Shown here: piece after piece, positions 3,532 to 27,823 of the stretch
How the letters are laid out: every line of letters begins with the position of its first letter
Numbering within the stretch: position 1 is the stretch's first letter
Assembly: GCA_947589595.1 (NCBI GenBank)
Contig: CANQBV010000002.1
Coordinates: forward strand, 62,001 to 126,000
Source: an uncultured Clostridia bacterium
GTDB taxonomy: Bacteria > Bacillota > Clostridia > Oscillospirales > SIG627
Direction: 5' to 3'
DNA length: 64,000 bases
The notes under the pieces: model-generated
Seen by the model: the letters and a program-made list of their open reading frames with translations, nothing else
Databases searched by the model: none
Told to the model about the DNA's origin: nothing
Made by a program: the position numbers and the translations under genes

Positions 3532-4536
3532 TTATCCTAACATTTCACGAATTCTGGCGGCGCGGTATTCATCCCGCAAATTCGGCGCCAAAAGCTCGGC
3601 GTTGCGCAGCTGCAAATACGCCGGCATGGCCTCTATGAGCATCCGATCCAGATTTTCGCATTTCTCGGCTTCCTCCAGCCCGATCTCTTTTCCGAGCCGT
3701 ACCAGAGAATACAGCGAGATCCATTCGGAAAACGCCATCCGGCGGGCGTATTTTAAAGTGCCGATGGCGCGGTAAACGGAATCCTCCAATTCCTTTTCGC
3801 GGGTTTGAAGCAGCAGATCCTTGGCTTTTTCTTCCTCCAGAATGATCTGTTCCACAATCCGCTCGAAAGAGGAAATGATCTCCTCCGGCGCAGCGGATTT
3901 GGACATCTGGTTGGAAATCTGAAAGATCGCGCCGCTTTCCTCACTGCCCTCTCCGAAAAGGCCGCGCACGGTAAAGCCCGCGTCGTTTAAGTAACGCGTC
4001 AGGGCGTTTAACCGGCCGGTGACCTTCAGGCACGGCAGGTGGATCATCACCGAGGCGCGCATGGCGGCGCCGAGATTGGTAGGGCAAGCGGTAAGATACC
4101 CAAACGGCTCCTCAAAGGCCATCGGCACCTTTTCCTCCAGCCTGGTTTCCCAGGCCTTGGCTTTTTCAAAGGTCTCGCGGATCTTTTTGCCCTTGGAAAT
4201 AGCTTGCAGACGAACATGATCCTCCTCGTTGATCATAATCGCCACGTCCCCTGCCTCCGAGAGCAGCAGCCCCGCGCCCTCGCCGGCAGCCGCCAGCGCG
4301 CGGCTGGCAAGATGCGTCTGCACGTAGGCTTCTTTCACGGTTTTTTCCGCCGTTCCGTAGTCTACAAACAGCATTTTTTCGTCGGCAAAAGCGCTTTTGA
4401 CCTGCTCGCAAATTTCTCTTTTTTCCGCACCGGTCAGCTTTTGGGGAAATTTTTTGCCCTCCAGATTGCGTGCAAAGCGCACGCGAGTGGAAATAACCGG
4501 GGAATTCTCGCAGTCTTTTGTTTCAAACCAATACAT
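3532..4536 (-). CDS. mcsB: Protein-arginine kinase McsB
   Basis: McsB phosphorylates arginines of damaged or regulatory proteins (including CtsR) and so marks them for ClpCP. The 334-residue protein has the phosphagen-kinase-like catalytic fold. Near the N terminus is STRVRFARNLEGKKFP (ATP-binding arginines), and later ACPTNLGAAMRASVMIHLP, the conserved ATP:guanido-phosphotransferase signature region around the family Cys. It lies two bases downstream of mcsA and its ribosome binding site (GGAGGCG) is inside the mcsA 3' end, so the two are probably translationally coupled. Activity is expected to need McsA. Family assignment is secure. Confidence 0.95.
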   Translation of the reverse strand: MYWFETKDCENSPVISTRVRFARNLEGKKFPQKLTGAEKREICEQVKSAFADEKMLFVDYGTAEKTVKEAYVQTHLASRALAAAGEGAGLLLSEAGDVAIMINEEDHVRLQAISKGKKIRETFEKAKAWETRLEEKVPMAFEEPFGYLTACPTNLGAAMRASVMIHLPCLKVTGRLNALTRYLNDAGFTVRGLFGEGSEESGAIFQISNQMSKSAAPEEIISSFERIVEQIILEEEKAKDLLLQTREKELEDSVYRAIGTLKYARRMAFSEWISLYSLVRLGKEIGLEEAEKCENLDRMLIEAMPAYLQLRNAELLAPNLRDEYRAARIREMLG

Positions 4537-4538
4537 GG

Positions 4539-5075
4539 CTACGCCTCCAATCCGCGGATCTTGTCGCGCAGGCGGGCCGCTTCCTCATAGTTTTCCCGGG
4601 AAACGGCGTTTTTCAGTTCTTTTTTCAAGCGTTCGATTTCCTTTTTCTTCGTTTCCTCCGGGTCTATCCCGAAAGCTTCCTTTTTCGGCTTCTCTTTTCC
4701 GGTCAGGCGCTCGCCGCTGTAGCCTTTCCCGATAAACGGAGAAAAATCGATCCGTTCCCGAAAGGCGCGGTAGCAATCCGGGCAGCCGAACACGCCGCTT
4801 TCGCGCACGCGTCTTATGCTTTCACCGCAGGTCGGGCACACGGCGTTCTGCTGCGGCGACAGGCTTTTTTGCGCCGGAAATCCCGGAAAGATGGGAAACG
4901 CCGAAAACGGATTTTCATAAAAAAGCGGATCGGTAAAAAATTTGCCGATTTCCTTTTTTTCCGCACACTCGGCACAAAGGTGGGCTTCCCGCACCTTGCC
5001 GTTGACCGTTTCCTTCCAATACACGGTGGCTTCCTTGCCGCATTCCTCACAGCTGTATTTTTTCAGTTCTTTCAT
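4539..5075 (-). CDS. mcsA: McsA, zinc-binding activator of McsB (UvrB/UvrC motif)
   Basis: McsA activates the arginine kinase McsB and links it to CtsR and ClpC. The 178-residue protein has two CxxC zinc-binding pairs at the N terminus (CEEC, CAEC), a second pair set around residues 80-100 (CPTC and CPDC), and a C-terminal UVR motif (ENYEEAARLRDKIRGLEA). This is the usual McsA order. It is the second gene of the ctsR operon, six bases after ctsR, with AAAGGA upstream of the start. Confidence 0.92.
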   Translation of the reverse strand: MKELKKYSCEECGKEATVYWKETVNGKVREAHLCAECAEKKEIGKFFTDPLFYENPFSAFPIFPGFPAQKSLSPQQNAVCPTCGESIRRVRESGVFGCPDCYRAFRERIDFSPFIGKGYSGERLTGKEKPKKEAFGIDPEETKKKEIERLKKELKNAVSRENYEEAARLRDKIRGLEA

Positions 5076-5788: not shown

Positions 5789-6451
5789 ATGAGAATGAGA
5801 AAGAAAAAACACGCCGAGGAACGCATTGCCGCCTGCGGCGAGCTTTTGGTAACCGAGCCGCAAAGCTTTTCGGGCAAATGGCGCGAAGCGTTTGCCGCGC
5901 GACTGGAACGCTGTGTCGACACGGCGGCGCTTTCGCTGGAAATCGGCTGCGGCAAGGGCGCTTTTATTCTGGAAATGGCAAGACGTGAGCCGGAAACGCT
6001 TTTCGTGGCGATAGAATGCTGCCGCGAAGCGCTGCTTTTGGCGATGGAAAAGGTCAAAGACGCCGGCGTTCCCAATATTCTATTTCTCCATGAAAACGCC
6101 GCGGATTTGGATCAAATTTTCGCGCCGGAGGAAGTGGACCGCATTTACCTGAATTTTTCCGATCCCTGGCCGAAAGCGCGCCACGCTAAGCGGAGATTGA
6201 CCGCGCCCTCGTTTTTGGCTCTTTACGCCCGCATCCTGAAGCAAGACGGGTTCCTGCGCCAGAAAACCGACAACGTGATCCTTTTTGAATCCTCTTTGGA
6301 AAACTACAAGGCGCTGGGCTGGCGCCTTTCGGATCTGACGCGCGACCTGCACGCTTCCCCGGAAAACGCCGATAATATTGAAACCGAATATGAAAAAAAT
6401 TTTTCCGCCAAGGGCTTTGCCATTCAGGCGGTGACCGCCAGAAAACCATGA
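5789..6451 (+). CDS. trmB: tRNA (guanine-N7-)-methyltransferase TrmB
   Basis: TrmB makes m7G46 in the variable loop of many tRNAs, using S-adenosylmethionine. The 220-residue protein has the SAM-binding motif LEIGCGKGAFILEMA at about residues 50-64 and the TrmB signature NFSDPWPKARHAKRR, plus a Thr-rich active-site region before the C terminus. Length is typical. The ATG at 5789 has GGAG eight bases upstream. It overlaps the next gene by four bases (ATGA), so the two are co-translated. Confidence 0.94.
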   Translation: MRMRKKKHAEERIAACGELLVTEPQSFSGKWREAFAARLERCVDTAALSLEIGCGKGAFILEMARREPETLFVAIECCREALLLAMEKVKDAGVPNILFLHENAADLDQIFAPEEVDRIYLNFSDPWPKARHAKRRLTAPSFLALYARILKQDGFLRQKTDNVILFESSLENYKALGWRLSDLTRDLHASPENADNIETEYEKNFSAKGFAIQAVTARKP

Positions 6452-12699: not shown

Positions 12700-13647
12700 T
12701 TACGACACAACATTCTGCGGATTTCCCGCAAGATATGCGGCCACATTATCGGCGGCGATCCCGATCAGCCGGGCGCGGGTTTCGCGCGGGGCCCAGGCAA
12801 TATGCGGCGTCAAAAATAAATTCTTCGCCCCGATCAGCGGACAATCCGCCCGCTGCGGCTCCTCGGAAAGAACATCAGCGGCGTACCCGGCAATTTTGCC
12901 GCCGTCCAGCGCCGCGCGCAGGTCAGCCTCGGCAGCCAGTCCGCCGCGGGCGGTATTGATCACAAACGCCGTGGGCTTCATCAGCGAAAGCGTTTCGGCG
13001 TTGATGATCCCGCGAGTGGAATCGTTCAGCGGGCAATGAAAACTCAGATAATCGGCGCGAGCAAACAATTCTTCCAGGGGAACAAGTTCATACGGCACTT
13101 CTTTTTTCGTGCGGGCATGATAAATAATTTTCATCCCAAACGCTGTTCCGATAGACGCCACCTTTTGCCCGATTGTACCCATCCCGAAAATCCCCAGCGT
13201 TTTCCCGCTGATTTCCGATATCGGAAACGGGTAATAGGTAAACAGCGGCGAACGCTGCCAATCGCCGTTTTGTACGGACGAAACATAGGTAAAAAGGCTG
13301 GTCGCAAATTGCAAAATAAAGGCAAAGGTCAACTGTGCCACCGCGTCGGTGGAATAGGCGGGAACGTTCGTTACCGTAATCCCCCGCTTGCGACAAGCCG
13401 CTACGTCGATGGTGTTGTACCCGGTTGCCATGGCGCCGATATAGCGCAGCTTTTTGCAGGCTGCCAAAACCTCCTCTGTCATTTGCGATTTATTACAGAG
13501 AACTACCTCGGCGTCTCCGATCGTCTCCGCCAAATTTTCTTTCGGCACCCACTCGTATTCGCGCACGGTTCCGAATTTGCGAAACACATCCGCCTTTAAA
13601 TCGTTACCGTAGCAGGAGCTTCTTTCCAGAATACAGATTTCCATCAA
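12700..13647 (-). CDS. D-isomer-specific 2-hydroxyacid dehydrogenase
   Basis: This 315-residue NAD-dependent oxidoreductase would reduce a 2-keto acid to a D-2-hydroxy acid. A glycerate/hydroxypyruvate-type substrate is plausible but not proven. It has the Rossmann motif GMGTIGQKVASIGTAF, the signature FVINTARGGLAAEADLRAAL with the substrate-binding Arg, the Glu motif DVLSEEPQ, and the catalytic His in LFLTPHIAW. Its promoter is at 13691-13719. It is a monocistronic gene at the edge of the mobile element. Confidence 0.9.
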   Translation of the reverse strand: MMEICILERSSCYGNDLKADVFRKFGTVREYEWVPKENLAETIGDAEVVLCNKSQMTEEVLAACKKLRYIGAMATGYNTIDVAACRKRGITVTNVPAYSTDAVAQLTFAFILQFATSLFTYVSSVQNGDWQRSPLFTYYPFPISEISGKTLGIFGMGTIGQKVASIGTAFGMKIIYHARTKKEVPYELVPLEELFARADYLSFHCPLNDSTRGIINAETLSLMKPTAFVINTARGGLAAEADLRAALDGGKIAGYAADVLSEEPQRADCPLIGAKNLFLTPHIAWAPRETRARLIGIAADNVAAYLAGNPQNVVS

Positions 13648-13690
13648 TTTTTTCCTCTACCGTTCCAAACCGGTCTTTTTTTGTTTTATC

Positions 13691-13719
13691 AGTATAGCCG
13701 AATTCCGATCGAAAGTCAA
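13691..13719 (-). promoter_or_regulatory. Sigma-A promoter of the dehydrogenase gene
   Basis: On the minus strand TTGACT (13719-13714) and TATACT (13696-13691) are 17 bp apart. This fixes DNA left of about 13720 as host sequence. Confidence 0.88.
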
Positions 13720-13774
13720 GTCCAAAGGCAAAAATACCACCGCCCGTTTCTGCGTTTCCGATAGATGAATTTAT

Positions 13775-14002
13775 CCCGTCCGAAGGACGGGTTGAGTTGA
13801 AAAAGGTTTTTTCGGCTGTTTGGCGGAGAGAGTTGAACTCCTGTGTGGGTGGCGGGAGCCGCAGGCGTAGAGCGGAGCTTTTGTTTTTTGAGCAAAAGCT
13901 TCAACCGGAGGCAAGGCGGACGTGGGGATAAGGAGGGACAGCCCGTCAAGCGACGCCGTGATTTACAAAGTAAATCGCGGCAAGCCACATGGACTTGCCG
14001 CG
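13775..14002. other. Strongly structured segment at the left junction of the mobile element
   Basis: No convincing gene lies between 13648 and 13945, but the stretch holds several hairpins: CCCGTCC/GGACGGG at 13775-13791, AGCTTTTG/CAAAAGCT at 13877-13900, a 12-bp stem GCCGTGATTTAC/GTAAATCGCGGC at 13955-13981, and CGCGGCAAG/CTTGCCGCG at 13976-14002. The last two share 13976-13981 and so exclude each other. The final hairpins overlap the 3' end of the recombinase gene. It may be a structured RNA, an attachment region or an insertion target. Confidence 0.55.
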
Positions 14003-15589
14003 ACGTGGTGGACGCCGGGACGAAGCAGTTGAACCCCCCGCAGCGTCGGTTTCAACGGCTTCGTTGACGATGCTCCAGGCGAGAGACCTCTTGTCGCTGC
14101 CATAAAAGAACGTGGTCACAATCTTGTCGTCGTACACGTAGATGGCCTCGACGTAGTTTTCAAGGAAATAGTCTCGGATGACAGGGTCGTCAAAGTCGGC
14201 GTATCGGTAAGTCGCCAGCAGCCGGAGGGTCCCCGCCTCGTCATCCGAGACGGTCTGCATCCGTTCTTCCAGCTCGATTTCGTCCGACAGGGCTTTCTTC
14301 CGGGCTTCCAGCTCTTGGAGCGCGGCCTGGGTCGTCTCCGAGAATATGCCGTTCATCAGGGCGTTGACCAGGTTGTTCAGCTTCCGGTCCACGTCCTTTT
14401 TGGCCGCCAGGAGCATTTCCAGCTTGCCGCTGTCCTGCTCCCGCTCCCGCCGCAGTTTGGCGGTGATGTCGGCCGCCAGGGCGGAAAAGATGTTCTCGTC
14501 CTGCACGAACGTATAGAACAAGTGGATGACGGCCCCCTCAAGGACGGCTTTCTTGATGGGCTTCTTGTGGCAGAGTTTCCGGCGCTGCGACTTGCAGTAA
14601 TAGTAATAATGCTTCGTCGCCCGCGTTTTGGACGTGCCGCTCACGCCCTGCATGGTGTCGCCACAATGGCCGCAGAACAGCTTCCCGGTCAGCCAGTAGC
14701 GGGGCGCTGGGGCATCCCCTATGGCCTCGTGTTTCAGCTCGTTTGCCCGGCGGGACCCGTCCCGCTTGTTCTGTGCAAGCCGCGACTGCGCTTTCTTGTA
14801 AAGTTCCTCGTCGATGATGGCGGGTATCCCTCCCGGCTTTTCCGCGCCCTTGTACCGGTAGACGCCTATGTAGGCGGGGTTTGTGAGTATCTTCCGCATA
14901 CCGTTGATATTGAACGGCCCGCCCGTGCTGGTCCGCAGCCCCTCGCCGTTCAGCGCCTTGCAGATTTCAGCCATGGGGACGCCGTCCGCGTACTCCCGGT
15001 ATATCCGCTGGACGATGGGGGCCGTGGCCGGGTCGATGGCGTAACGCTTCCGGTGCTTGCCGTGTTCCGGGGCCGGTTCCGCCCGGTATCCGAGGATTTT
15101 ATATCCGGCGCACAGGCACTTTTCCGCTATGTCACGCTGCCCGCGTGATATGTTCTCGGACATATTGGCGGAGTAGTTTTCCGCCTCTGCGGCCCGCATG
15201 GCGAGGACCATCAGCTCCGTCTCCCGGTTCTCGATGTTGGCGTCCGCAACGAATTTCAGCTTGATGCCCGCGTCCATCAGCCGCCTACGCGCCACCAGGA
15301 AATCGGCGGCGTTGCGGTTCAGCCGGTCGATTTTCCAAAGGATAAGCACCGAGGGCTTGACCCGCTCGATTTCCCGGAACATCTGCATATAGCCGGGGCG
15401 GTCGGTGTCCGTCCCCGTCCGGGCGTAGTCCTCATACTCGCGGCAGATGGTGTATCCGTGCTGTTCGGCAAACCTGTGCGCCTCCAGGCGCTGCTGGTCT
15501 ATCGAGGCGTCGGACTGGCTGTCTGAGCTGAACCGGTAATAGGCGATTGCAAGGTTGTTGTCGTTCTGGATGAATTTCTGGACTGCCAT
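13946..15589 (-). CDS. Large serine recombinase (site-specific integrase/excisionase)
   Basis: This 547-residue recombinase likely integrates and excises the element. The N-terminal resolvase domain has the catalytic Ser in AYYRFSSDSQ, followed by a DxxxxRPGYMQM segment and LWKIDRLNRNAADF. A Recombinase domain follows (ILGYRAEP to TNPAYIGVYRYKG), then a zinc ribbon (LFCGHCGDTMQGVSG and YYYCKSQRRKLC) and a coiled coil. The last 20 or so residues (rich in Arg/Pro, then MWLAAIYFVNHGVA) are atypical and are encoded in the hairpin region at the element border. They may come from the junction rather than the original gene. The start follows AGAAAGGGGGTG. Confidence 0.93.
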   Translation of the reverse strand: MAVQKFIQNDNNLAIAYYRFSSDSQSDASIDQQRLEAHRFAEQHGYTICREYEDYARTGTDTDRPGYMQMFREIERVKPSVLILWKIDRLNRNAADFLVARRRLMDAGIKLKFVADANIENRETELMVLAMRAAEAENYSANMSENISRGQRDIAEKCLCAGYKILGYRAEPAPEHGKHRKRYAIDPATAPIVQRIYREYADGVPMAEICKALNGEGLRTSTGGPFNINGMRKILTNPAYIGVYRYKGAEKPGGIPAIIDEELYKKAQSRLAQNKRDGSRRANELKHEAIGDAPAPRYWLTGKLFCGHCGDTMQGVSGTSKTRATKHYYYYCKSQRRKLCHKKPIKKAVLEGAVIHLFYTFVQDENIFSALAADITAKLRREREQDSGKLEMLLAAKKDVDRKLNNLVNALMNGIFSETTQAALQELEARKKALSDEIELEERMQTVSDDEAGTLRLLATYRYADFDDPVIRDYFLENYVEAIYVYDDKIVTTFFYGSDKRSLAWSIVNEAVETDAAGGSTASSRRPPRRGKSMWLAAIYFVNHGVA

Positions 15590-15649
15590 TCCGGCACCCC
15601 CTTTCTCTTGTGTGATAATCCCCTCGCAGGACGTCCCTGGACGGCCTGT

Positions 15650-15718
15650 GAGGCGTTTTAAGCCTCTCTGAGTATAACTGACCGTCTCGCGGCTAAAGCC
15701 CCTTAAAACGCCTCTGAG
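15650..15718 (-). promoter_or_regulatory. Leader element upstream of the serine recombinase (copy 1 of an in-element repeat)
   Basis: The recombinase leader contains a perfect 13-bp inverted repeat, GAGGCGTTTTAAG (15650-15662) with CTTAAAACGCCTC (15702-15714). The 40 bp at 15679-15718 are nearly identical to 20101-20140 in the leader of the RadC gene. The rest of the 15590-15950 gap holds the divergent promoter of the 15951 gene. Confidence 0.7.
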
Positions 15719-15863
15719 AGCGTCTGAGTGGCATAGCCGTTTGAAACGTCTTTTTCCTGTCCGGCTGACAGTCTATTTTAGCACGTTTACGCTCATTTAT
15801 CAAGGTTCACACGGGAAATCTCGTGATTTTCCGCTCATTTTTGTAGAAAATGGCCGAAACCCC

Positions 15864-15893
15864 TTGACTTTCATACGTATGCAGGTATATACT
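15864..15893 (+). promoter_or_regulatory. Promoter and probable operators of the R-M operon
   Basis: TTGACT (15864-15869) and TATACT (15888-15893) are 18 bp apart. The spacer holds the palindrome CATACGTATG (15872-15881), and TACTTATACAAGTA (15891-15904) is another near palindrome. These are plausible sites for the small DNA-binding protein encoded next. Confidence 0.7.
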
Positions 15894-15950
15894 TATACAA
15901 GTAACTGCTATTATGACCGGGGTCGTCCGGCGATATGAAAGGAGAACGCT

Positions 15951-16148
15951 ATGGCAAAACGGGATAACGCGCTCGGCAGGTGCGATGCTGCCGCAACGGG
16001 GCATGATACAGAGCAGAGCGGCAAGACGACCATCACGCTGTCCATCACTGAGGCGGACAAGCTGAAGGTCAAGGTGTACGCGATGGCGCATAAGACGACG
16101 GTATCTGACCTGCTGCACGGGTGGATACAGGAGAAATGTGAGAGCTAA
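15951..16148 (+). CDS. Small ribbon-helix-helix-like DNA-binding protein
   Basis: The 65-residue protein ends in KTTITLSITEADKLKVKVYA then HKTTVSDLLHGWIQ. That is a beta strand plus two helices, as in Arc/CopG/ParG-type proteins. It may control the operon or partition the element. It lies 17 bp before the methyltransferase gene, has ribosome binding site AAAGGAG and shares the promoter at 15864-15893, where palindromes could be its operators. The function is inferred from the fold alone. Confidence 0.65.
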   Translation: MAKRDNALGRCDAAATGHDTEQSGKTTITLSITEADKLKVKVYAMAHKTTVSDLLHGWIQEKCES

Positions 16149-16165
16149 TTTAGGAGGAATCAACC

Positions 16166-17212
16166 ATGAGTAGCACAAATTCGGGACCCGTTATGGTGTC
16201 TTTATTTTCAGGGGGCGGCGGCCTTGATAGAGGTTTCATGAACGCTGGATATAATGTCGTTTGGGCAAATGACTTTGATGCTGACGCCCAAGCTGTTTAT
16301 CGTTTGAACTTGGGCGATATTGACGGGAGGGATATTCTCACTGTCCCGGAGGACGAGATTCCAGACTGTGATATGCTGACGGCAGGTTTTCCGTGCCAGC
16401 CATTCTCTAACGCCGGGATGCGTAAGGGCGTTCATGATTCGCGCGGAATGCTCTATAAAGAGTGCTTGCGGATTATTGGAAAGAAAATGCCGAAAGCAAT
16501 TTTGTTTGAGAACGTCAAAGGTTTACTGTCCACAAAGTATATTGACGGTCGGAAGTTAGCTGATGTGATTGTGGAAGATTTGTCTACCATGAACGGTATC
16601 GGCTACAATGTGGTCTATCAGTTGGTAAATGCAGCAGATTATGGCGTACCGCAGAATAGGCAGCGTGTTCTTTTCATCGGCATTCGGAAAGATTTGAATA
16701 TCAACTTTGTTTTCCCGGATAAGCAACCCAGGGACCGGCTGACACTTCGGTATGTTCTGGATATTCCGACTACCGCAACGCATCAGGTGGATTGGCCGTT
16801 ATCCCCGCAGGCATTGGAAATGATTTCATACATCCCAGAGGGTGGTTCTTGGAAAGATGTGCCGTATGAGCATTTGGCACCACGCTTTAAGCGTATTCGA
16901 GATGACATGAAACGGTATCATTCTCCAAACTTTTATCGGCGTTTTTCACGGGATGAGATTTGTGGGACTATGACGGCATCGGCCCAGCCTGAAAACTGCG
17001 GCATCATTCATCCTACCGAAAATCGGCGCTTTACTATTCGTGAAGTGGCTCGCATTCAGTCGTTCCCGGATGACTACAAATTCATTGATGGCACGTTAAA
17101 GGATATAACGGCCATGTATAAGGTCATTGGCAACGCAGTCCCTGTCAATTTGGCATGTGCCATTGCCACTGCTATTCGGCAGCAAGTATTTGACGGGGGT
17201 GAAGAAAAATGA
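16166..17212 (+). CDS. DNA (cytosine-5-)-methyltransferase
   Basis: This 348-residue enzyme methylates cytosine C5 within a specific DNA site. Ordered motifs are: I, LFSGGGGLDRGF; IV, GFPCQPFS with the catalytic Cys; VI, ENVKG; VIII, QNRQRVLF; IX, RFTIREVARIQSFP; X, GNAVPV. The target recognition region between VIII and IX is short, so it is a compact Dcm-type enzyme. The next gene starts in ATGA at its stop, so methylation and the downstream proteins are translationally coupled. The sequence recognised cannot be read. Ribosome binding site TAGGAGG. Confidence 0.95.
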   Translation: MSSTNSGPVMVSLFSGGGGLDRGFMNAGYNVVWANDFDADAQAVYRLNLGDIDGRDILTVPEDEIPDCDMLTAGFPCQPFSNAGMRKGVHDSRGMLYKECLRIIGKKMPKAILFENVKGLLSTKYIDGRKLADVIVEDLSTMNGIGYNVVYQLVNAADYGVPQNRQRVLFIGIRKDLNINFVFPDKQPRDRLTLRYVLDIPTTATHQVDWPLSPQALEMISYIPEGGSWKDVPYEHLAPRFKRIRDDMKRYHSPNFYRRFSRDEICGTMTASAQPENCGIIHPTENRRFTIREVARIQSFPDDYKFIDGTLKDITAMYKVIGNAVPVNLACAIATAIRQQVFDGGEEK

Positions 17213-18594
17213 TGGATACTGATAAGGCATATATCCTTGGGCTGATTATAGGCGGCGGTATTTGGGGAAATGCTGAGGACGTTTTCCGTATTCGACTTCC
17301 GTATAAACAATGGGGGTCTTATGAGGCAAACCCAAAACGCGCTGGAGATATTTCCAGAGATGTAATGCGGATGGTCAGCCCGTTGTTTCGTGTCATTTAT
17401 GGTATTACTGTTTCCTATGACACATCTGCCGGGGGTGTTTGGAACATTCTCTGCGAGGGCGATTTGAGCGCTCTAAAGGCGGAGTTAGAGGGATATGGCA
17501 TCAAGTGCGAGGGCGAGGTTCGTAAGACCGCTAACATAAATCGCATTGTGCCAGAATTGGTGGATGACAATTTGAAACGGCGGTTTATTGCCGGTCTTGC
17601 AGATACCATTGGCAGCACAAAGCGTTCTCATAGGAGATTCAATGACGATAAGCAAATGGTGTCTTTTGAAATCTCTGGATTTGAGTTTGATTTTGTATGT
17701 TCTCTTTGTAAGCTGCTTCATAGCATAGGCTGTTATCCGGACCAGATTCTTTGGAATCATCCGAATTTCCACTGCGCAAGCAATCCATACGACAGAAAGT
17801 GGAAAAAAGGCTTTAAGCTCCGTGTTTATCTTGACCAGTACGAAAAATTCGGCGCTTTTGCGTTTACATCCAAGGTTTTATCTGTTCAAGAGAATAAATC
17901 GCTGGAAAGCGCCGAGAATGTGGCAATACCGTGTCCAGAGCGGGAAATCAAAATGCCGTCTGTAACGTGCGTTCATTGTGATGAGGGAAGTCCCCTTTTG
18001 CCCGATACGATACGTGGCGGTCACTATCTACATAATCGTCACGTTTGCGCAGTTTTGGAATGTGAACATGCACCGTATGGGGCGGTTTCTGAATTACTAT
18101 CTCATGCAGAATACTGCATCAATCCGTTTCCGGTACTGGTGAAAGGGCGTTTGGACGACATCCTTTCTATTTTGGAAACAGAAGAAATTTACAGAAACTG
18201 TCATTTTCGCACCATACGTGTGAGGATTGCGGACCTTTATGGTGATACAGACAGAACCCTGCTGTTTGGAGATGGTCAAGAAGCTGGCTATCCGTTGAAC
18301 AAAGTCATCTTGGCTATAACTTTCTTAATTGCCGCTGTTACGGACCAGCTTAACGGACTACGCCCGAGAGGGTCAAAAGATAAGATTATTGAGGACTATC
18401 TGAAACAGAATCCGAACGCTGAGGTTTTTATCCGCGTGCCAGACCTTATGACTGCCATTGTGGTTGAAATGGGCGCTTACGCCGCCTTAGTCGGCGCAAA
18501 TAATCCTCGTGTGTACAGAAAGCTCATTCAAAGAGACCCTGCAAATCGCTATAAGATAAGCGTGCGCCCTATCACGGAGGATGATTTGAAATGA
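17209..18594 (+). CDS. LAGLIDADG-like protein of the R-M operon, function unknown
   Basis: This 461-residue protein has two LAGLIDADG-like helices: YILGLIIGGGIWG (about residues 8-20) and FIAGLADTIGS (126-136), spaced as in two-repeat LAGLIDADG endonucleases. The positions that should carry the catalytic acid (Asp before the last Gly) appear to be Gly and Ile, so it may bind but not cut DNA. A later Cys/His cluster (Cys254-x2-Cys257, then His278 and Cys280) could bind zinc. The C-terminal half is unrecognised. It overlaps the methyltransferase and the following nuclease in ATGA, which argues for a complex or specificity subunit. Homing activity is an alternative. Confidence 0.75.
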   Translation: MMDTDKAYILGLIIGGGIWGNAEDVFRIRLPYKQWGSYEANPKRAGDISRDVMRMVSPLFRVIYGITVSYDTSAGGVWNILCEGDLSALKAELEGYGIKCEGEVRKTANINRIVPELVDDNLKRRFIAGLADTIGSTKRSHRRFNDDKQMVSFEISGFEFDFVCSLCKLLHSIGCYPDQILWNHPNFHCASNPYDRKWKKGFKLRVYLDQYEKFGAFAFTSKVLSVQENKSLESAENVAIPCPEREIKMPSVTCVHCDEGSPLLPDTIRGGHYLHNRHVCAVLECEHAPYGAVSELLSHAEYCINPFPVLVKGRLDDILSILETEEIYRNCHFRTIRVRIADLYGDTDRTLLFGDGQEAGYPLNKVILAITFLIAAVTDQLNGLRPRGSKDKIIEDYLKQNPNAEVFIRVPDLMTAIVVEMGAYAALVGANNPRVYRKLIQRDPANRYKISVRPITEDDLK

Positions 18595-19217
18595 GACACA
18601 GTAAAAATGAGGTTGCGCATTATCCAGAAATAATGCGTTGTGTTGAAATGCAATTACAAAGCAATTTTAGGGCTGCTGGAGTGACTGACCTCAAAATTTA
18701 CTGGAAAAGCGGAGAATTGACAGCAAAAATAAAAGAGCTGGTGCAGGAGCATCCGGACACTTGTTCCTGCATGGCAGGTTATAGCCGCTCTACTCCTCCA
18801 TTAAATCTTGATATTTTTGCCGTGGTTACAGATGGTCGGAAGTATGAGATAGTCATTCTGGAAGTGAAACTGCGGGAGGCCGTTGGCCTTAATCAATGGT
18901 CCCAGCTGATAGGATACAATCTGGTATCTAATGCTCGCTATGGCTTGCTGATAAACATTGATGCCGGGGCGAGTAGTCGATTGGAGGGCATATTGGCTTC
19001 TGATGTGGACGCGTCTCGGATTGTACGGCAAAAGGCCGATGGAACTACGGTAGAACACCTTTTGGGGTTCATGGAATGGAATACCGTAACACAAAATTTT
19101 GAGTATTCCGGCTTGGGGCAAATACACTCTCTTTCAGCTTTGAGTAAAGCCCTGATTTCAAGGTTTGAATATCACACGAAAAGGAGCGTGATTCATCATG
19201 GCAAAGAAGTCTTATAG
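18591..19217 (+). CDS. Putative PD-(D/E)XK nuclease of the R-M operon
   Basis: The 208-residue protein has a PD-(D/E)XK-like core: LNLDIFAVV with Asp74, then YEIVILEVKLREAVG with Glu91-x-Lys93, followed by a Gln-containing helix (NQWSQLIGYN) and a strand YGLLINI. An N-terminal helical region may contact DNA or the partner. Its start overlaps the preceding stop in ATGA. It is most simply the cleaving subunit of a restriction-like system with the two upstream genes. It could instead be another kind of nuclease such as a phage-defence effector. The assignment rests on motif spacing, not a search. Confidence 0.65.
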   Translation: MRHSKNEVAHYPEIMRCVEMQLQSNFRAAGVTDLKIYWKSGELTAKIKELVQEHPDTCSCMAGYSRSTPPLNLDIFAVVTDGRKYEIVILEVKLREAVGLNQWSQLIGYNLVSNARYGLLINIDAGASSRLEGILASDVDASRIVRQKADGTTVEHLLGFMEWNTVTQNFEYSGLGQIHSLSALSKALISRFEYHTKRSVIHHGKEVL

Positions 19218-19494
19218 TGACCTGCAACGGGCCATCGAGGCCATGCAGCAGGAGCAGCAGAAAATGGAGCAGAAACGCATTGAGCAGCTTTCCAAGGCGC
19301 TTATGGCCTCCGGGCTGAAAAAGGAGCTGGCGGAGCTTACCGATGCACAGTTCCGCAAGCTGGCCCAGGGTATCGTCGCGGACCTCCCGACCCGTATCGA
19401 GGCGGTCAAGACGCCCGCCGAGGCTCCGGCCCCCGCTCCTGCCGCTCCGGTCCCCGCCGGGACGCCGCAGGCCCCCTATCCGACGATGCAGTAA
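19198..19494 (+). CDS. Small coiled-coil protein with Pro/Ala-rich tail
   Basis: The 98-residue protein starts inside the 3' end of the nuclease gene (20-base overlap), with AAGGAG upstream. Residues 5-60 are predicted to be a charged coiled coil (Gln/Glu/Lys-rich), and the tail is Pro/Ala-rich (APAPAPAAPVPAGTPQAP). Base composition is GC-rich like the element backbone, so it probably belongs to the backbone rather than the R-M cargo. Function is unknown. Confidence 0.6.
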   Translation: MAKKSYSDLQRAIEAMQQEQQKMEQKRIEQLSKALMASGLKKELAELTDAQFRKLAQGIVADLPTRIEAVKTPAEAPAPAPAAPVPAGTPQAPYPTMQ

Positions 19495-19499
19495 AGCAT

Positions 19500-19532
19500 A
19501 GCCCCCGCTGGTCACACGGCCAACGGGGGCTG
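19500..19532. terminator. Hairpin between convergent 19198 and radC-like genes
   Basis: AGCCCCCGCTGG and CCAACGGGGGCT form a 12-bp stem with one G-T pair. The T tail is weak, so it may be only a partial terminator. Confidence 0.55.
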
Positions 19533-19537
19533 CTGTC

Positions 19538-20014
19538 TTATCTGGCCTCCTGCTTCCGCGCCCTGGCATAAGAGTAAAACGCCCCGTCCGCGCCGATGAT
19601 GACGTGGTCGAGCATCGGGACGGACATGATGCGCCCGGCGTACCGTATGCGCTCGGTGACGTTGTCGTCCTCGCTGCTGGGCGTCTCGCTGCCGGACGGG
19701 TGGTTATGCACGGCGACAAAGTACACCGCGCCGCACATCAAGAGCCGTATGAACATCTCACGCGGCGAGAAGCGGACGTTGTCCACCGTTCCCTTTGCCA
19801 CGGGCAGGACGCCCAAAAGGCGGAATCTGCTGTCCAGTGCAAGCAGCATCATGTGTTCCTCCGCCTTGCGGTCCAGGCGCAGGGCGTCCCGTGCGAACGC
19901 ATTGACCACCTCCGGGTTTACGAAGGCGTCAAAGTCCTGTTCACAATGCGCCGGTTCCGCAATCAGGAGCGGGAGCCGGTCTTTCAGCTCCAGTTCATAT
20001 CTTGTATAGTCCAT
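19538..20014 (-). CDS. RadC-like JAB domain protein
   Basis: The 158-residue protein is the MPN/JAB metalloprotease-like domain common on mobile elements. The zinc motif is HNHPSGSETPSSEDD (His, His, Ser, Asp), preceded by a family-typical segment LPVAKGTVDNVRFSPREMF. It lacks the UPF0758 N-terminal helix-hairpin-helix domain of chromosomal RadC. The role may be element maintenance or anti-restriction, but it is not established for this group. Its leader contains the second copy of the in-element repeat. Confidence 0.85.
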   Translation of the reverse strand: MDYTRYELELKDRLPLLIAEPAHCEQDFDAFVNPEVVNAFARDALRLDRKAEEHMMLLALDSRFRLLGVLPVAKGTVDNVRFSPREMFIRLLMCGAVYFVAVHNHPSGSETPSSEDDNVTERIRYAGRIMSVPMLDHVIIGADGAFYSYARARKQEAR

Positions 20015-20058
20015 AACAATCCTCCACTGTATGTAGTTCTTGTGTGCCTCTGAGAGCC

Positions 20059-20140
20059 CCCAGGGCGCTCCAGGAGCGCCCAGGAGGCTTTCAGGGTGTA
20101 GTTGACCGTCTGAGCGGCAAAGCCCCTTAAAACGCCTCTG
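20059..20140 (-). promoter_or_regulatory. Leader element upstream of the radC-like gene (copy 2 of the in-element repeat)
   Basis: On the minus strand the 40 bp at 20140-20101 matches 15718-15679. It is followed by the palindrome GGGCGCTCC/GGAGCGCCC at 20061-20079. The hairpin differs in sequence from copy 1 but has the same place relative to the shared block. Confidence 0.7.
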
Positions 20141-20159
20141 AGGGGCCTTGGCGGCCGTC

Positions 20160-20783
20160 TCAGGTATGCAGGGCGTATTTCGCCCCTTTCAGGCTGCCGT
20201 TCTCGTGCAGTATCAGACCGCCGCAGATGCCCCGGCGTCCGTCCGCCAGTTCTTCCTCGAAATAGAAGCTCCAGGGGTTCCAGTCCTTGTAGAACCGGAT
20301 AGCGGCGGTTCCGTGCCATTTGAAGTTGTCCCGCAGCGCACGGGTCAGCTTCCCACGGAGCGACGGCATGGACAGGACCCGATGCAGCGTCTCGGCCGCC
20401 CCGGAGAAATCAAGAAAAGGGCAGCGCAGGTCCTCGTCTGCGGACAGCAGGGACAGCGACGCGGGGCCGCCGCTCAGACTGCCGGTCACGAAGTCTGCGA
20501 ACGCGGCGTAGTCCACCGACACGTTCTCCCGGTAGCCGGTGACGGCGTCTCTGCCCTGGTCGGACAGCCAGGTGATGCGGATGTTCAGAAGCCCGCCGAA
20601 GTCTTGGATGGACAGCGTGGCGAACGAGAACAGGTCGGTCACGGTGACACAGCGGCGGCTCTCCAGGTCGGCCAGCTCGTTCCGGGTCACGTAGAAAGTG
20701 TGAGGTGATTTCCGCGCCATGCTCACGGTGCGGAAAGAGATGCAGTCGCCGGATGCGGCCAGTTTCACAAGGGTACGGTTCAT
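20160..20783 (-). CDS. Conserved-looking element protein, function unknown
   Basis: The ATG at 20783 (NRTLVKLAASGD) is preceded by AAGGAGAG and gives a protein of 207 residues. An upstream in-frame extension exists but overlaps the ardC-like gene and has no such site. No domain is recognised. The C-terminal half contains many aromatics (NWHGTAAIRFYKDWNPWSFYF). It lies 14 bp after the ardC-like gene and is probably cotranscribed with it. Confidence 0.65.
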   Translation of the reverse strand: MNRTLVKLAASGDCISFRTVSMARKSPHTFYVTRNELADLESRRCVTVTDLFSFATLSIQDFGGLLNIRITWLSDQGRDAVTGYRENVSVDYAAFADFVTGSLSGGPASLSLLSADEDLRCPFLDFSGAAETLHRVLSMPSLRGKLTRALRDNFKWHGTAAIRFYKDWNPWSFYFEEELADGRRGICGGLILHENGSLKGAKYALHT

Positions 20784-20797
20784 AATCTTCTCTCCTT

Positions 20798-21667
20798 TCA
20801 TGCAAGCGCCTTTTCGATGGCGTCTATCAGCTCTTGGGATGCCTTGCGGATGACGTCCATGCTGGAGGCCAGCTCCGGCGTCTTTTTGCCGGATGACCAT
20901 CCGGCGACGTATCCGAAAGAATAGTCCGACGTGTCCAGGCCGAAGTGCTGGCATACGATGTAGGCCACGCTTTCAGCTTGGACCTCTCTGGTGCGCTGGT
21001 CGGGTCCGTCCTTGGGCCGCTTGCCGTCCTCCGGGAGCGCGTGGAGCTTGGCATGGGCGATTTCGTGGATGGCAGTCTTGACGGTCTGAAGCTCGCTCAT
21101 GTTCTCGTTGATGGCGATTCTCCGTTCCGTATGGCTGTAATAACCGTGCGCCCCTGTGGTGATAGGTTCAAAGCCCATCGGGACCGGGGAGATGCGCTCC
21201 AGCGCGTCAAGAATCGCCGGGTACTGCTCCACCGTTCCGGTCAGCTCGTCCACGCCCAGCGTTGGCAATTCCTCGCCGTCGGTCTGCGACACATCGAATA
21301 CGGATACGACCTTGCAGCATACGATTTCGTCCTCTTTCTCGGCGTCCGGGTCATCCCCGTCTTTGCTTTTTGCGTAAATCACGGGTGCAAAGATGCGGAT
21401 GCCTTTCTCGCCCTTGCGGACCTGACGATGGAACTTTTTCTGCCAGTCGTTGTAGCCAGCGACCAGAGAAGCGTCGGGTTTCTGCATCCAGATAAGCACG
21501 GCGTTTCGGAAGCTGTACTTTCTGAATTTGGACATGGTGCGTAAGAAGCGCGCATAGTTTTCGGACGCGAAAACGGACTGCACGCCCTGTTCCAACTGCT
21601 CCAAAAGCTCTCGGACCTTTTCCTCTCTCGTGGCATGGTTGGACATCGTGTTGGTTGGGTTTCTCAT
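20798..21667 (-). CDS. ArdC-type antirestriction/zincin metallopeptidase protein
   Basis: The 289-residue protein has an ArdC-like N-terminal ssDNA-binding domain (residues about 15-110, with a WMQKPDASLVAGYNDWQKKF segment) and a C-terminal zincin with HEIAHAKLHA as the metal site and a downstream Glu. ArdC-type proteins protect incoming DNA during transfer. The start at 21667 follows AAAGGAGAG. A TTG six bases further upstream is possible but less likely. On this element it would fit protection of transferred single-stranded DNA. Confidence 0.85.
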   Translation of the reverse strand: MRNPTNTMSNHATREEKVRELLEQLEQGVQSVFASENYARFLRTMSKFRKYSFRNAVLIWMQKPDASLVAGYNDWQKKFHRQVRKGEKGIRIFAPVIYAKSKDGDDPDAEKEDEIVCCKVVSVFDVSQTDGEELPTLGVDELTGTVEQYPAILDALERISPVPMGFEPITTGAHGYYSHTERRIAINENMSELQTVKTAIHEIAHAKLHALPEDGKRPKDGPDQRTREVQAESVAYIVCQHFGLDTSDYSFGYVAGWSSGKKTPELASSMDVIRKASQELIDAIEKALA

Positions 21668-22090
21668 AGACAATCTCTCCTTTGTGTAAAAAATTTGGCC
21701 GGGGTCGGGCGGAAAAGCCCCTCCCCCTTAATTACCAAACCGGCCGCCCACGGCGGCCTTATCACGGGGAGGTATGACAGGGGGGGAGGACAGGGCGCAA
21801 ATCACACAAAGGGTCACAGGGAAAGGGTGTGAAAAATTAGCGTGTCGCAAGACACGCGGTCGGTCACATCCGAAGTTTTTCAACATCCTGCCCATGCCGA
21901 AAAGAGATGCAAGGGAAAAACGGCCGGTGGCGGTTTGTCCCTGCCGGGTGAGAAAGGGTCAAGGGGAAACGGGCAGCGTCCGGCGTCCCCTTGTCGGGAA
22001 AAAAGGGTGCAGGGAAAAAGGGGCAGACAGTCCCTTTGCCTTGCCCGATAGGGGGTGTCCAGAGGGGGAAAAGCGGAGCGGCTCCCCCTT

Positions 22091-22146
22091 GGCAAGAAGC
22101 GGGTTGGAGAGCGTAAGCGGTTCTCAACCCACTTCTTGCCTTTTTT
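22091..22146 (+). terminator. Terminator-like long hairpin upstream of mobC
   Basis: GGCAAGAAGCGGGTTG pairs with CAACCCACTTCTTGCC (one mismatch), with a second stem inside, followed by TTTTTT. No protein gene precedes it on the plus strand. It may end a small RNA or be part of oriT. Confidence 0.65.
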
Positions 22147-22163
22147 GAATCAGGCTCAGCATA

Positions 22164-22225
22164 TTGACTTTCAGGTCGATTAGGTGTATCATATACCAAA
22201 CAACTGTTTGAGTATATGATACACC
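22164..22225 (+). promoter_or_regulatory. Promoter with long palindromic operator in front of mobC
   Basis: TTGACT (22164-22169) and TATCAT (22187-22192) are 17 bp apart. The -10 lies in a 14-bp perfect inverted repeat, GGTGTATCATATAC (22183-22196) and GTATATGATACACC (22212-22225), with an inner CAAAC/GTTTG. A dimeric ribbon-helix-helix protein such as the MobC-like product is the expected ligand. Confidence 0.75.
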
Positions 22226-22246
22226 GTATTTGAGGAGGCAAAAGCC

Positions 22247-22756
22247 ATGAGTGAAGCGAAGGGCGGCGCTCCCAGGAAGGGCGAGTTGGTTCCGCTGACC
22301 GTAAGGTTCACGCGGGAAGCATACGATGCCATCCGGGAGATTGCCAACGAAAATAATATATCCACGGCCGCACTTGTGCGGATAGCCGTGGATATGGAAA
22401 TCGACCGGTATTTGAGCCTGATTCGTTTTTTGGATTACGGCATGGAGAAACAAGTCAAAGATTCCGTCAGGGGGCTTTTCACGGAGACCCAAAAGGTACT
22501 TTTTGAGTTGAGGCGTATCGGTGTCAACTTCAATCAGCAGGCGCGGCTCTATAACTTAAAAAAGTCTTTTGACCGGGAGATGAAGAACGCTCCCGCTGGT
22601 TCGCGAATCGACCTGATGCAGAGGCAGATGGCGATGGAAAAGCAAATCCAGGCCGAGTGCAAACCGCTCGACATGGAGAAGCTGGAAGAATTGATAGCCC
22701 GCTTTGAGGCAGCGTCGCGGGAGGTGAACAAGGTCCTATGTCGCATACTACCATAA
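22247..22756 (+). CDS. MobC-like relaxosome accessory protein
   Basis: The 169-residue protein has an N-terminal ribbon-helix-helix (PLTVRFTREAYDAIREIA then NISTAALVRIAVDMEID) and a helical C terminus with VNFNQQARLYN, typical of MobC/relaxosome proteins. It should bind oriT and help the relaxase, and probably represses its own promoter. It overlaps mobA by 19 bases. Ribosome binding site GAGGAGG. Confidence 0.85.
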   Translation: MSEAKGGAPRKGELVPLTVRFTREAYDAIREIANENNISTAALVRIAVDMEIDRYLSLIRFLDYGMEKQVKDSVRGLFTETQKVLFELRRIGVNFNQQARLYNLKKSFDREMKNAPAGSRIDLMQRQMAMEKQIQAECKPLDMEKLEELIARFEAASREVNKVLCRILP

Positions 22757-24021
22757 GCAAGACGAGAAGCGGACGCGCCCTGCTGGATTACGTCCTTGAT
22801 GAAAAAGCTCACAACGGTATCGGGGTCCGCAATCAGCTTGTAGTCCCTGTGAACCTTGCCAGCGGTGATGCGGAGTCCTACGGCGACCAAATGGCCGCCG
22901 TGTGGTGCCGCCGTTCGTCCAAAAACAAGAACGAGGCCCGTCACGTTATCACCAGTTTCTCGAAAAAGGAGCTTGACCCGAATGACCCTGCCGACTGGAT
23001 GCTGGCGGGCGCGATTTGCCAGGAGTTCGTGGAACAAAACTACCCCGGCTTCCAGGCAATTATCGCTATCCAGACGGACGGCAAGGGCGGATGTGTCCAC
23101 GGTCATATCGTCATCAACAATACCCGCATGGCAGACTTCAAGGGCTGCACGGACGAGCAGACAAAGGCGTGGTTCGTGCGTCAGAAGATGGACGACATCA
23201 TCTCGAAGCACATGGAAATCGACCACGGCAAGGAGCAGGACGTCCCGGAGAAAATCGGCGAGAAGTCCATGCGCGACAAGGGCGGAAAGTACGTCTGGAA
23301 AGATGACCTGCGCGACCGGATTTTGCAAGCGCGGGACGCAGCGAAAGACTTCGACGATTTTATGAGTACGCAGCTCCCGGCCGTGGGCGTCTCGGCGGAA
23401 TATCATCCGGGCGGCACAAAGCGCACCGGCAAGGTGATAGACCCCTACATCACCTACAAGCTGGAGGACGTGAGCGGATTTGGGGATGGGAAGATACCGG
23501 AGAATTTGAAATCCAGGAGCAACAAGCTCGGCACAGAGTTCGGCCCCGAGGGTCTGGAGAAAGCATGGCAGAAAGGCCCCGTCGTCACACAGCCCGTGAC
23601 ACCTGCCCCGCCCGCGCCTGTGTTCACGGTCCCGGAAGTTCGGCCTACGGACGACGGCTACATGACCTATGATGAATGGGCGCAGCAGCACGGGTTCACG
23701 TCCCCGGAGGACCTTGTCCTGCACTTTGACGACTACCGGGCGGACAAAGAGGCGGCGGCGCAAAAGGCCAAGGAGCCGCCCGCCGAGGTGCCGGAACAGT
23801 CGGACGCCGAGTTGCCTGTTAAGCCGCCCGTGGAGGAACCCCCGCAGGAAACCTACGATGACCGCCGCAAGCGCGAACGGGAGGAAATCCTGAAAAGGCA
23901 GAAGCAGCGACTGAGCGAGGATGCCGCTGGTGAGGTCGAGAACGCCCAGGCCATTTATCGCCGGATGCGCGAACAGGCGCAGAACAGGCGGCAGAAACAG
24001 GGCGACTACGGGGACGAGTAA
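22738..24021 (+). CDS. MobA/MobP-type relaxase
   Basis: The 427-residue relaxase nicks one strand at oriT and stays covalently attached to lead DNA transfer. The N terminus has an invariant Tyr in LLDYVLDEKA. The metal site is visible as GCVHGHIVINN (two histidines), and the C terminus is a Pro-rich, charged tail. The start overlaps the mobC end, so the two are coupled. The tail has no helicase domain, so unwinding must come from the host or from the element's helicase. Confidence 0.9.
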   Translation: MSHTTISKTRSGRALLDYVLDEKAHNGIGVRNQLVVPVNLASGDAESYGDQMAAVWCRRSSKNKNEARHVITSFSKKELDPNDPADWMLAGAICQEFVEQNYPGFQAIIAIQTDGKGGCVHGHIVINNTRMADFKGCTDEQTKAWFVRQKMDDIISKHMEIDHGKEQDVPEKIGEKSMRDKGGKYVWKDDLRDRILQARDAAKDFDDFMSTQLPAVGVSAEYHPGGTKRTGKVIDPYITYKLEDVSGFGDGKIPENLKSRSNKLGTEFGPEGLEKAWQKGPVVTQPVTPAPPAPVFTVPEVRPTDDGYMTYDEWAQQHGFTSPEDLVLHFDDYRADKEAAAQKAKEPPAEVPEQSDAELPVKPPVEEPPQETYDDRRKREREEILKRQKQRLSEDAAGEVENAQAIYRRMREQAQNRRQKQGDYGDE

Positions 24022-27660: not shown

Positions 27661-27823
27661 GTAGTCATGCTCGTGAGAATTTGTAGTCATGCTCGTGAGA
27701 ATTTGTAGTCACCCTCGTGAGGATTTTTAGTCATGCTCGTGAGGATTTTGAGCTGCCTGTTTAGAGGCCAGTAGTCACCCTCGGGGCAATTTGTAGTCAT
27801 GTACGGAGAAATTTGTAGTCACC
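27661..27823. repeat. Phased 22-bp iterons, probable replication origin
   Basis: Six copies of a 22-bp unit (GTAGTCATGCTCGTG then AGAATTT, or close variants) follow each other without spacers at 27661, 27683, 27705, 27727, 27771 and 27793, with a partial copy at 27815. One degenerate unit of exactly 22 bp (27749-27770) keeps the phase. Units of two helical turns are typical of initiator-binding iterons. The initiator-like gene ends 14 bp away. Confidence 0.82.

Follow-up and report, generated by a model that had tools for sequence, protein, structure and literature searches.

The radC RNA motif (RF01754) is a leader that precedes radC- and integrase-type genes, as does the repeated block that is the subject of this report. 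The motif is placed in Proteobacteria in PMC2864571. A second point of reference is EGeRS1 of the pLS20 family of conjugative plasmids, which, according to PMC8708921, occurs in five copies of 420–750 bp with 62–95% identity: repeated, strongly folding leaders that, in five establishment operons (that of ardC included), stand right in front of the probable ribosome-binding site. The one leader put to the test blocked read-through coming from a promoter upstream of it, and the transferred strand of pLS20 is the non-template strand (same source). A third is provided by the single-strand promoters of the Frpo/ssi type, described for F and ColIb-P9 by Samuel et al. (PMC11541004).

The block considered here is found twice in the window, by which I mean the whole stretch of 64,000 nt that was analysed, each time ahead of a gene, first that of a recombinase and then a RadC-like one, and it has the look of a control region common to the two. 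A repeat search of the window aligned the two copies without gaps across 58 nt at 78% identity, and the alignment contains an exact run of 24 nt common to both. A 23-nt part of this run, AAGCCCCTTAAAACGCCTCTGAG, occurs on the + strand of the whole window only at 15696 and 20120. When one single-base gap is allowed on each side, the initial 24 nt (CTCAGAGGCGTTTTAAGGGGCTTT) together with AGACGGTCA are the same in both copies. After removal of a 22-bp tandem array, exact direct repeats in the window reach a length of 24 nt, as compared to a maximum of 14–19 nt in 30 dinucleotide shuffles, and in the 1.43-Mb assembly (incomplete, at 85.65%) AAGCCCCTTAAAACGCC is found without mismatch only at the two block copies.

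The preliminary description of this DNA had reported a 40-bp recurrence, in the same orientation relative to the downstream gene. The repeat is real, with a correction of 2 nt in the coordinates of the second copy: 15679–15718 matches 20103–20142, not 20101–20140, and in this register 34 of the 40 nt are identical without gaps (counted by hand). The orientation was given correctly. Both copies lie upstream of - strand genes, and the distance from the gene-ward end of the block to the start codon is 71 nt in copy 1 (start at 15589) and 70 nt in copy 2 (start at 20014).

Judging by the genes around them, which include those for a recombinase, RadC, ArdC, a MobC-like protein and a relaxase (Table 1), the blocks appear to lie in an integrated mobilizable element. 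To the left are the genes for DnaG, sigma-70 and other housekeeping functions and to the right are tRNA genes; no convincing direct repeat was found that would mark the ends of the element. Copy 1 lies between the recombinase gene (- strand) and a divergent small gene, and copy 2 lies downstream of ArdC, in surroundings where all genes are on the - strand. The match to DUF4120 of the gene preceding RadC is weak (28.1 bits as compared to a cut-off of 27) and was obtained with the longer ORF 20160–20954; the version 20160–20783 has no match in NCBIfam. The stretch between the block copies has a GC content of 44–50%, as compared to about 60% on both sides. After the methylase gene it contains two ORFs (461 and 208 aa) with no Pfam or NCBIfam match, and the three together are possibly a restriction-modification or anti-restriction set. 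Just before mobC are two inverted repeats, at 22091–22140 and 22183–22225 (16 nt at 94% and 14 nt at 100%). Past the relaxase gene come a gene for a DnaB-like helicase and then, adjoining it, the tandem array (27661–27823), built of 22-bp units GTAGTCATGCTCGTGAGAATTT plus a variant, which is iteron-like and perhaps an origin of the element.

Table 1. Features at and around the two block copies (positions in the window; folding energies and z scores relative to shuffled sequences where given).
Feature	Coordinates	Strand	Remarks
Large serine recombinase, 547 aa	13946..15589	-	Pfam Resolvase, Recombinase, Zn_ribbon_recom
Downstream hairpin stretch, copy 1	15605..15665	-	-20.9 kcal/mol, z -2.95
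Inverted repeat of copy 1	15640..15724	-	-31.3 kcal/mol, z -2.9
Block copy 1	15661..15718	-	Aligns with copy 2 over 58 nt, with an exact match at 15695-15718; lies in predicted 5' leader of recombinase mRNA
Alternative hairpin of copy 1, block and upstream leader	15679..15752	-	-30.6 kcal/mol, z -4.4
Predicted sigma-70-like promoter upstream of block 1	15775..15803	-	Consensus match only
Lower-GC stretch between leaders: C-5 cytosine methylase and two ORFs	16166..19217	+	GC 44-50%
RadC-like JAB-domain protein, 158 aa	19538..20014	-	PF04002
Downstream hairpin, copy 2	20044..20096	-	-38.1 kcal/mol, z -5.1
Block copy 2	20085..20142	-	Between stop codon of DUF4120-like gene and RadC-like gene
Upstream pairing of block, copy 2	20099..20164	-	z -2.2; 5/200 shuffles as good
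Gene upstream of RadC, DUF4120-like	20160..20783	-	Start codon picked by eye
ArdC-type antirestriction protein	20798..21673	-	ArdcN and M78/IrrE-like peptidase matches
Candidate oriT: two inverted repeats before mobC	22091..22225		Inferred from position
MobC-like protein and MobA/VirD2-like relaxase	22247..24021	+	

A promoter scan found upstream of block 1 a sigma-70-like site (TTGATA-17-TAAAAT, 10/12, with extended TG) and, farther upstream on the same strand, a weaker promoter-like site (15939–15910, 9/12); counting both strands, three promoter-like sites lie around block 1, as against 0.4 expected. Given the nearer site, block 1 would be transcribed. Some 57 nt separate the predicted -10 element from the block downstream of it, which in the predicted recombinase leader of approximately 180 nt would occupy the region about 50–110 nt in. 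At block 2 the same scan found neither a promoter-like nor a terminator-like site. The block begins here 17 nt after the stop codon (20162–20160) of the preceding gene, and since it stands between this stop codon and RadC, it is probably intercistronic and transcribed too, and probably within the leftward run of ArdC, DUF4120-like and RadC genes. If both blocks are transcribed, as seems probable, the leader proposed in the preliminary description is favoured over an operator inside a promoter. Neither leader has on the gene (-) strand a terminator-like site, the GC-rich hairpin with a U run behind it that an attenuator of the intrinsic-terminator type calls for. On the + strand, opposite the recombinase leader, there are two terminator-like sites (15757–15833). 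An antisense RNA could terminate at them; no + strand promoter was found before them in the scan.

As RNA, block 1 can pair with sequence on either side of it. In the inverted repeat of copy 1, the arm within the block is GAGGCGTTTTAAG and its downstream partner is CTTAAAACGCCTC, with 13 bp of perfect pairing inside 23-nt arms (83%; 15640–15662 and 15702–15724) that are 39 nt apart. This fold and the alternative one (15679–15752) are mutually exclusive, and their energies are nearly equal. In the longer predicted transcript, each of the 13 downstream pairs has a probability of 0.0, so that the upstream fold prevails in that transcript and equilibrium folding does not support the proposed switch. 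The region of copy 2 as a whole (20010–20150) folds above its shuffles (z -3.5), and the leader of copy 1 as a whole (15587–15735) does not (z -0.38), the folding excess of copy 1 being confined to sub-stretches that I picked. A different hairpin does follow each block, as had been noted beforehand. The 3' arm of the block is conserved and the sequences 5' of it differ, with CGGC:GCCG pairing still possible in both copies. With two sequences only, this retained pairing is anecdotal.

Searches for relatives of the block covered RNA families, its core sequence and the genes that it accompanies. At gathering score, Rfam 15 finds only tRNAs in the window, none of them at the blocks, and up to E 10 over 13000–24000 it gives six sub-threshold matches, again none at the blocks. 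In 14 related loci there was nothing at gathering score and one sub-threshold match (Flavo-1, E 0.93, in the viral contig L096). No third copy of the block stands above chance in the genome: a core pattern with 3 mismatches has 7 matches there, two of them the block copies, as against 18 for its reversed control. With at most one mismatch, the core pattern occurs in 2 of 22 family genomes, one of which is the source genome, and in the other the flanks are unlike the block. The sequence CTSWGAGGCGTTTTAAG, again with at most one mismatch, occurs in 17 of 398 genomes of a phylum sample (source genome included), at 19 places outside the source genome as against 9 for the reversed sequence (read from the table by eye). 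I rejected these places as relatives, for their contexts look unrelated, and likewise four places in a scan of a genome collection that have the core in unrelated flanks.

Homologues of the recombinase are present in 21 of 391 genomes, the source genome included, at 24 loci. Upstream of the 23 other loci (at most 450 nt each, and in one case only 149 nt) the leader is absent at up to 3 mismatches in the core, apart from one chance match at a ribosome-binding site. RadC homologues were found in 5 of 245 genomes, the source genome included, at 36–38% identity, and in no viral contigs. At E ≤1e-50 the relaxase is found in 1 of 391 genomes, the source genome itself; its matches in plasmids are all below 60% identity (the 8 matches listed are at 25–26%), and there are none in viral contigs. 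The core sequence strings are absent from the literature searched (open-licence papers). The leader put forward in the preliminary description, perhaps coordinating excision and accessory genes, has partial support. In its favour are the shared block, with its position, orientation and near-equal distance from both start codons, the differing hairpins, the predicted promoter at block 1 and the probable intercistronic location of copy 2; against it are the lack of an Rfam match, of a terminator-like site on the gene strand and of any counterpart upstream of the 23 recombinase homologues.

The core of the block has near matches elsewhere, in plasmids and in phages. By BLASTN, copy 1 matches 84 plasmid records at E ≤10, and the 40 matches listed all fall on the same first 40 letters of copy 1 (50 in one case). 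The best five records are 87.5% identical at E 4e-4, as compared to E 3 for the best of the reversed-sequence control, and taken as a sequence match this one is significant on its own. The two plasmids whose typing was examined are IncX5. They contain 40–50-nt near matches to copy 1 at 6001–6040 (L011) and 3001–3049 (L036); that of L011 lies approximately 400 bp from repeats before rep and adjoins an inverted repeat. In the same two plasmids a TTATCCACA DnaA box stands 268 and 411 bp away from the core, and phage phiK7A1 has four such boxes no more than 150 bp away from a weak match to the core. In all, TTATCCACA is near 3 of the 18 places tested, and a fourth (L019) has two looser matches.

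Against phages, copy 1 matches 8 records by BLASTN, representing 5 distinct phages, while the reversed control matches one related group (E 3, genic). The matches to Shrew (E 0.3), JCL1032 (E 0.9, covering the downstream arm of copy 1) and Nican01 (E 3) all lie between annotated genes, and that to phiSG1 (E 0.3) lies inside a gene. The match to the unannotated phage LNA4 (E 0.07) shares 9 nt with the end of an ORF, but its core is outside ORFs of at least 60 aa. In IMG/VR, GAGGCGTTTTAAGNGGNTTT is found in 15 contigs, of which 5 resemble copy 1 beyond the pattern and 10 do not; the five amount to three distinct ones (L008, L016/L023/L026 and L019), and in them ATGCC or ATGGCC stands at the distance found in copy 1, give or take 1 nt. 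A second pattern, GANGCYCTNNGAGGCGTTTTAA, is found there in 6 contigs (4 distinct), as against 0 for the reversed pattern; among the distinct contigs, one match is inside a 521-aa ORF and one in a 66-aa ORF. When L016 is itself compared with phages by BLASTN, 18 records are matched, 15 of them listed, with 8 distinct groups among those listed. None of the 6 annotated groups among the matches listed is genic. The matches to P8734 and Microviridae span part of the core, and the one to Listeria phage (unannotated) spans none of it. The reversed control gives at most 4 distinct phages, all genic.

Ten places were inspected for the orientation of the core. Relative to the next gene or ORF, it is co-directed in LNA4, P8734 (a weak core), BUCT006, L016, JCL1032 and phi 3 and opposed in Shrew, Nican01, phiK7A1 and L008. 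ORFs of at least 60 aa run over the core in copy 2 (111 aa), IncX5a (66–79 aa), L096 (66 aa) and L095 (521 aa); in Shrew a 165-aa ORF does so by way of an earlier start of the annotated gene, and among the five best plasmid records there is one with a hypothetical protein annotated at the core match. ORFs across the core at several places count against the claim that it is non-coding. I left uncounted 4 further contigs found by a pattern without TTTTAAG, where all matches lie inside ORFs, and dropped a conserved + strand peptide, LKTPLRAS, whose frames are short and starts inconsistent. The viral contig L096 contains, within a single stretch (4378–4560 and 4800–4840), several copies that are loosely related to the core.

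The recurrence of the core in phages and plasmids, mostly in non-coding DNA and above the reversed controls, is, apart from the plasmid match, as a sequence comparison suggestive, because most E-values are near 1 and the searches were chosen along the way. I think it unlikely that the core (approximately CTCTNNGAGGCGTTTTAAG, often within an imperfect inverted repeat) would be an undescribed non-coding DNA element shared across unrelated mobile elements and bound by a conserved host factor, for example in the priming or early transcription of incoming DNA. Its proposed carriers are the mobilizable element, IncX5 plasmids near rep and phages of Escherichia, Curtobacterium, Lactobacillus and others. 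If real, it would be a short non-coding signal of phages and plasmids in unrelated hosts, outside the Rfam families matched.

The explanation that I prefer, and hold tentatively as one that may well be wrong, is that the block could be a cis-acting structured leader, present twice in one integrated mobilizable element and acting as a gate on expression. It starts from what was observed: two copies above chance, their position and their folding potential. The predicted promoter and predicted transcription would place the block within the recombinase mRNA (copy 1) and within an ArdC–DUF4120-like–RadC message (copy 2). There it would form one strand of a hairpin, pairing with the upstream leader or, in copy 1, with downstream sequence, and together with the separate hairpin before the ribosome-binding site it would hold back expression of the recombinase and RadC genes, at the level of read-through or of translation. 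Mobilisation of the element would lift the restraint. What I infer beyond this is the gating, what triggers it and any link of excision to establishment genes. Against a gate speak the whole leader of copy 1, with no folding excess, and its downstream pairs at probability 0.0, the lack of an Rfam match, of a terminator-like site on the gene strand and of the leader in the relatives read, and the occurrence of the core elsewhere in either orientation to genes, which fits a DNA site, and with it a possible role at the level of DNA, better. The block might then be a double-stranded site, an operator or other protein-binding site before two genes, through which one protein acts on both. Such a site would suit the gapless conservation of 24 nt in copies whose predicted structures differ, a near-palindrome within the core of copy 1 (GACGCTCTCAGAGGCGT, by eye) and a similar core that in plasmids and phages is mostly intergenic and has both orientations to the genes. 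However, the left half of the palindrome is absent from copy 2, block 1 is too far past the predicted -10 element to be inside the promoter, block 2 has no promoter-like site, and the genome offers no third copy above chance; I regard this reading as somewhat unlikely.

Three further readings must be set against the structured leader. The copies flank a 4.4-kb stretch whose middle differs in GC, as a duplication or an exchange of cassettes could leave, and the block may be a relic, carried along when a gene or the lower-GC methylase stretch was copied and functionless now. This is improbable, in my view, for identity is concentrated in the block, which lies at a near-equal distance before two unrelated genes, and the 40-nt plasmid match, far better than its reversed control, argues for constraint. 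The prospects are slimmer that the block serves in conjugative transfer as a single-stranded DNA signal, either a Frpo-like promoter or an ssi site that primes synthesis of the complementary strand. Folded as DNA, the + strand has inverted repeats with a folding excess (z -3.4 and -3.1), the element has ArdC and a relaxase, and the DnaA boxes near the core in the two IncX5 plasmids and phiK7A1 would suit such a signal, although they are near so few of the places tested. But the block copies have no similarity to five intergenic stretches of the R100 leading region (assumed to contain its Frpo-type sites), nor does either copy to the G4 complementary-strand origin (G site) or the R100 origin region. 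Moreover, an oriT before mobC would make the transferred strand the non-template strand for both genes, and on the IncX5 transferred strand the core would have the opposite orientation. A Frpo-type promoter thus appears disfavoured by sequence (R100 only) and by the presumed strand. Least probable is a short leader peptide in copy 1 that controls the recombinase through translation of the leader. There is an in-frame ORF of 13 codons (ATG CCA CTC AGA CGC TCT CAG AGG CGT TTT AAG GGG CTT TAG), and its ATG is at the same distance within 1 nt in L008, L016 and L019, but no ribosome-binding site is seen by eye close to it, the frame in L008 and L016 ends after 3 codons, and copy 2 has no such start.

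Seen as a leader, the block would belong, as a variant, to a kind already known; a motif shared across elements would be new. It differs from the radC RNA motif in that RF01754 is absent both from the matches of the window at gathering score and from those over 13000–24000 up to E 10; a search for RF01754 in 18 genomes gave no signal and is uninformative, since its 14 controls gave none either. With the Frpo/ssi sites the block shares the placing of inverted repeats ahead of anti-restriction genes and other early ones in conjugative elements. It differs from them in that no -35/-10 pair is recognised by eye in the folded block and in that the presumed strand is the wrong one. When the block copies are compared with five pLS20 intergenic stretches, the scores are within the shuffled range, while the pLS20 stretches score 223–521 against each other as a positive control, so that the relation to EGeRS1 is one of analogy, not membership. 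Like EGeRS1 (PMC8708921), the block is repeated in one mobile element, in a region with ardC and, with a hairpin between it and the start codons, probably shortly before the ribosome-binding sites of separate genes, has inverted repeats, and shows no ordinary promoter at copy 2, and the transferred strand would, going by the candidate oriT, again be the non-template one. Unlike EGeRS1 as described there, the block is 58 nt long at 78% identity in two copies, and its element is integrated and includes the recombinase, copy 1 having a predicted promoter ahead of it. Were the leader to gate the recombinase as well as RadC, it would offer a small, testable case of an integrated element that ties excision to establishment genes, comparable to the leaders of pLS20 and yet unlike them.
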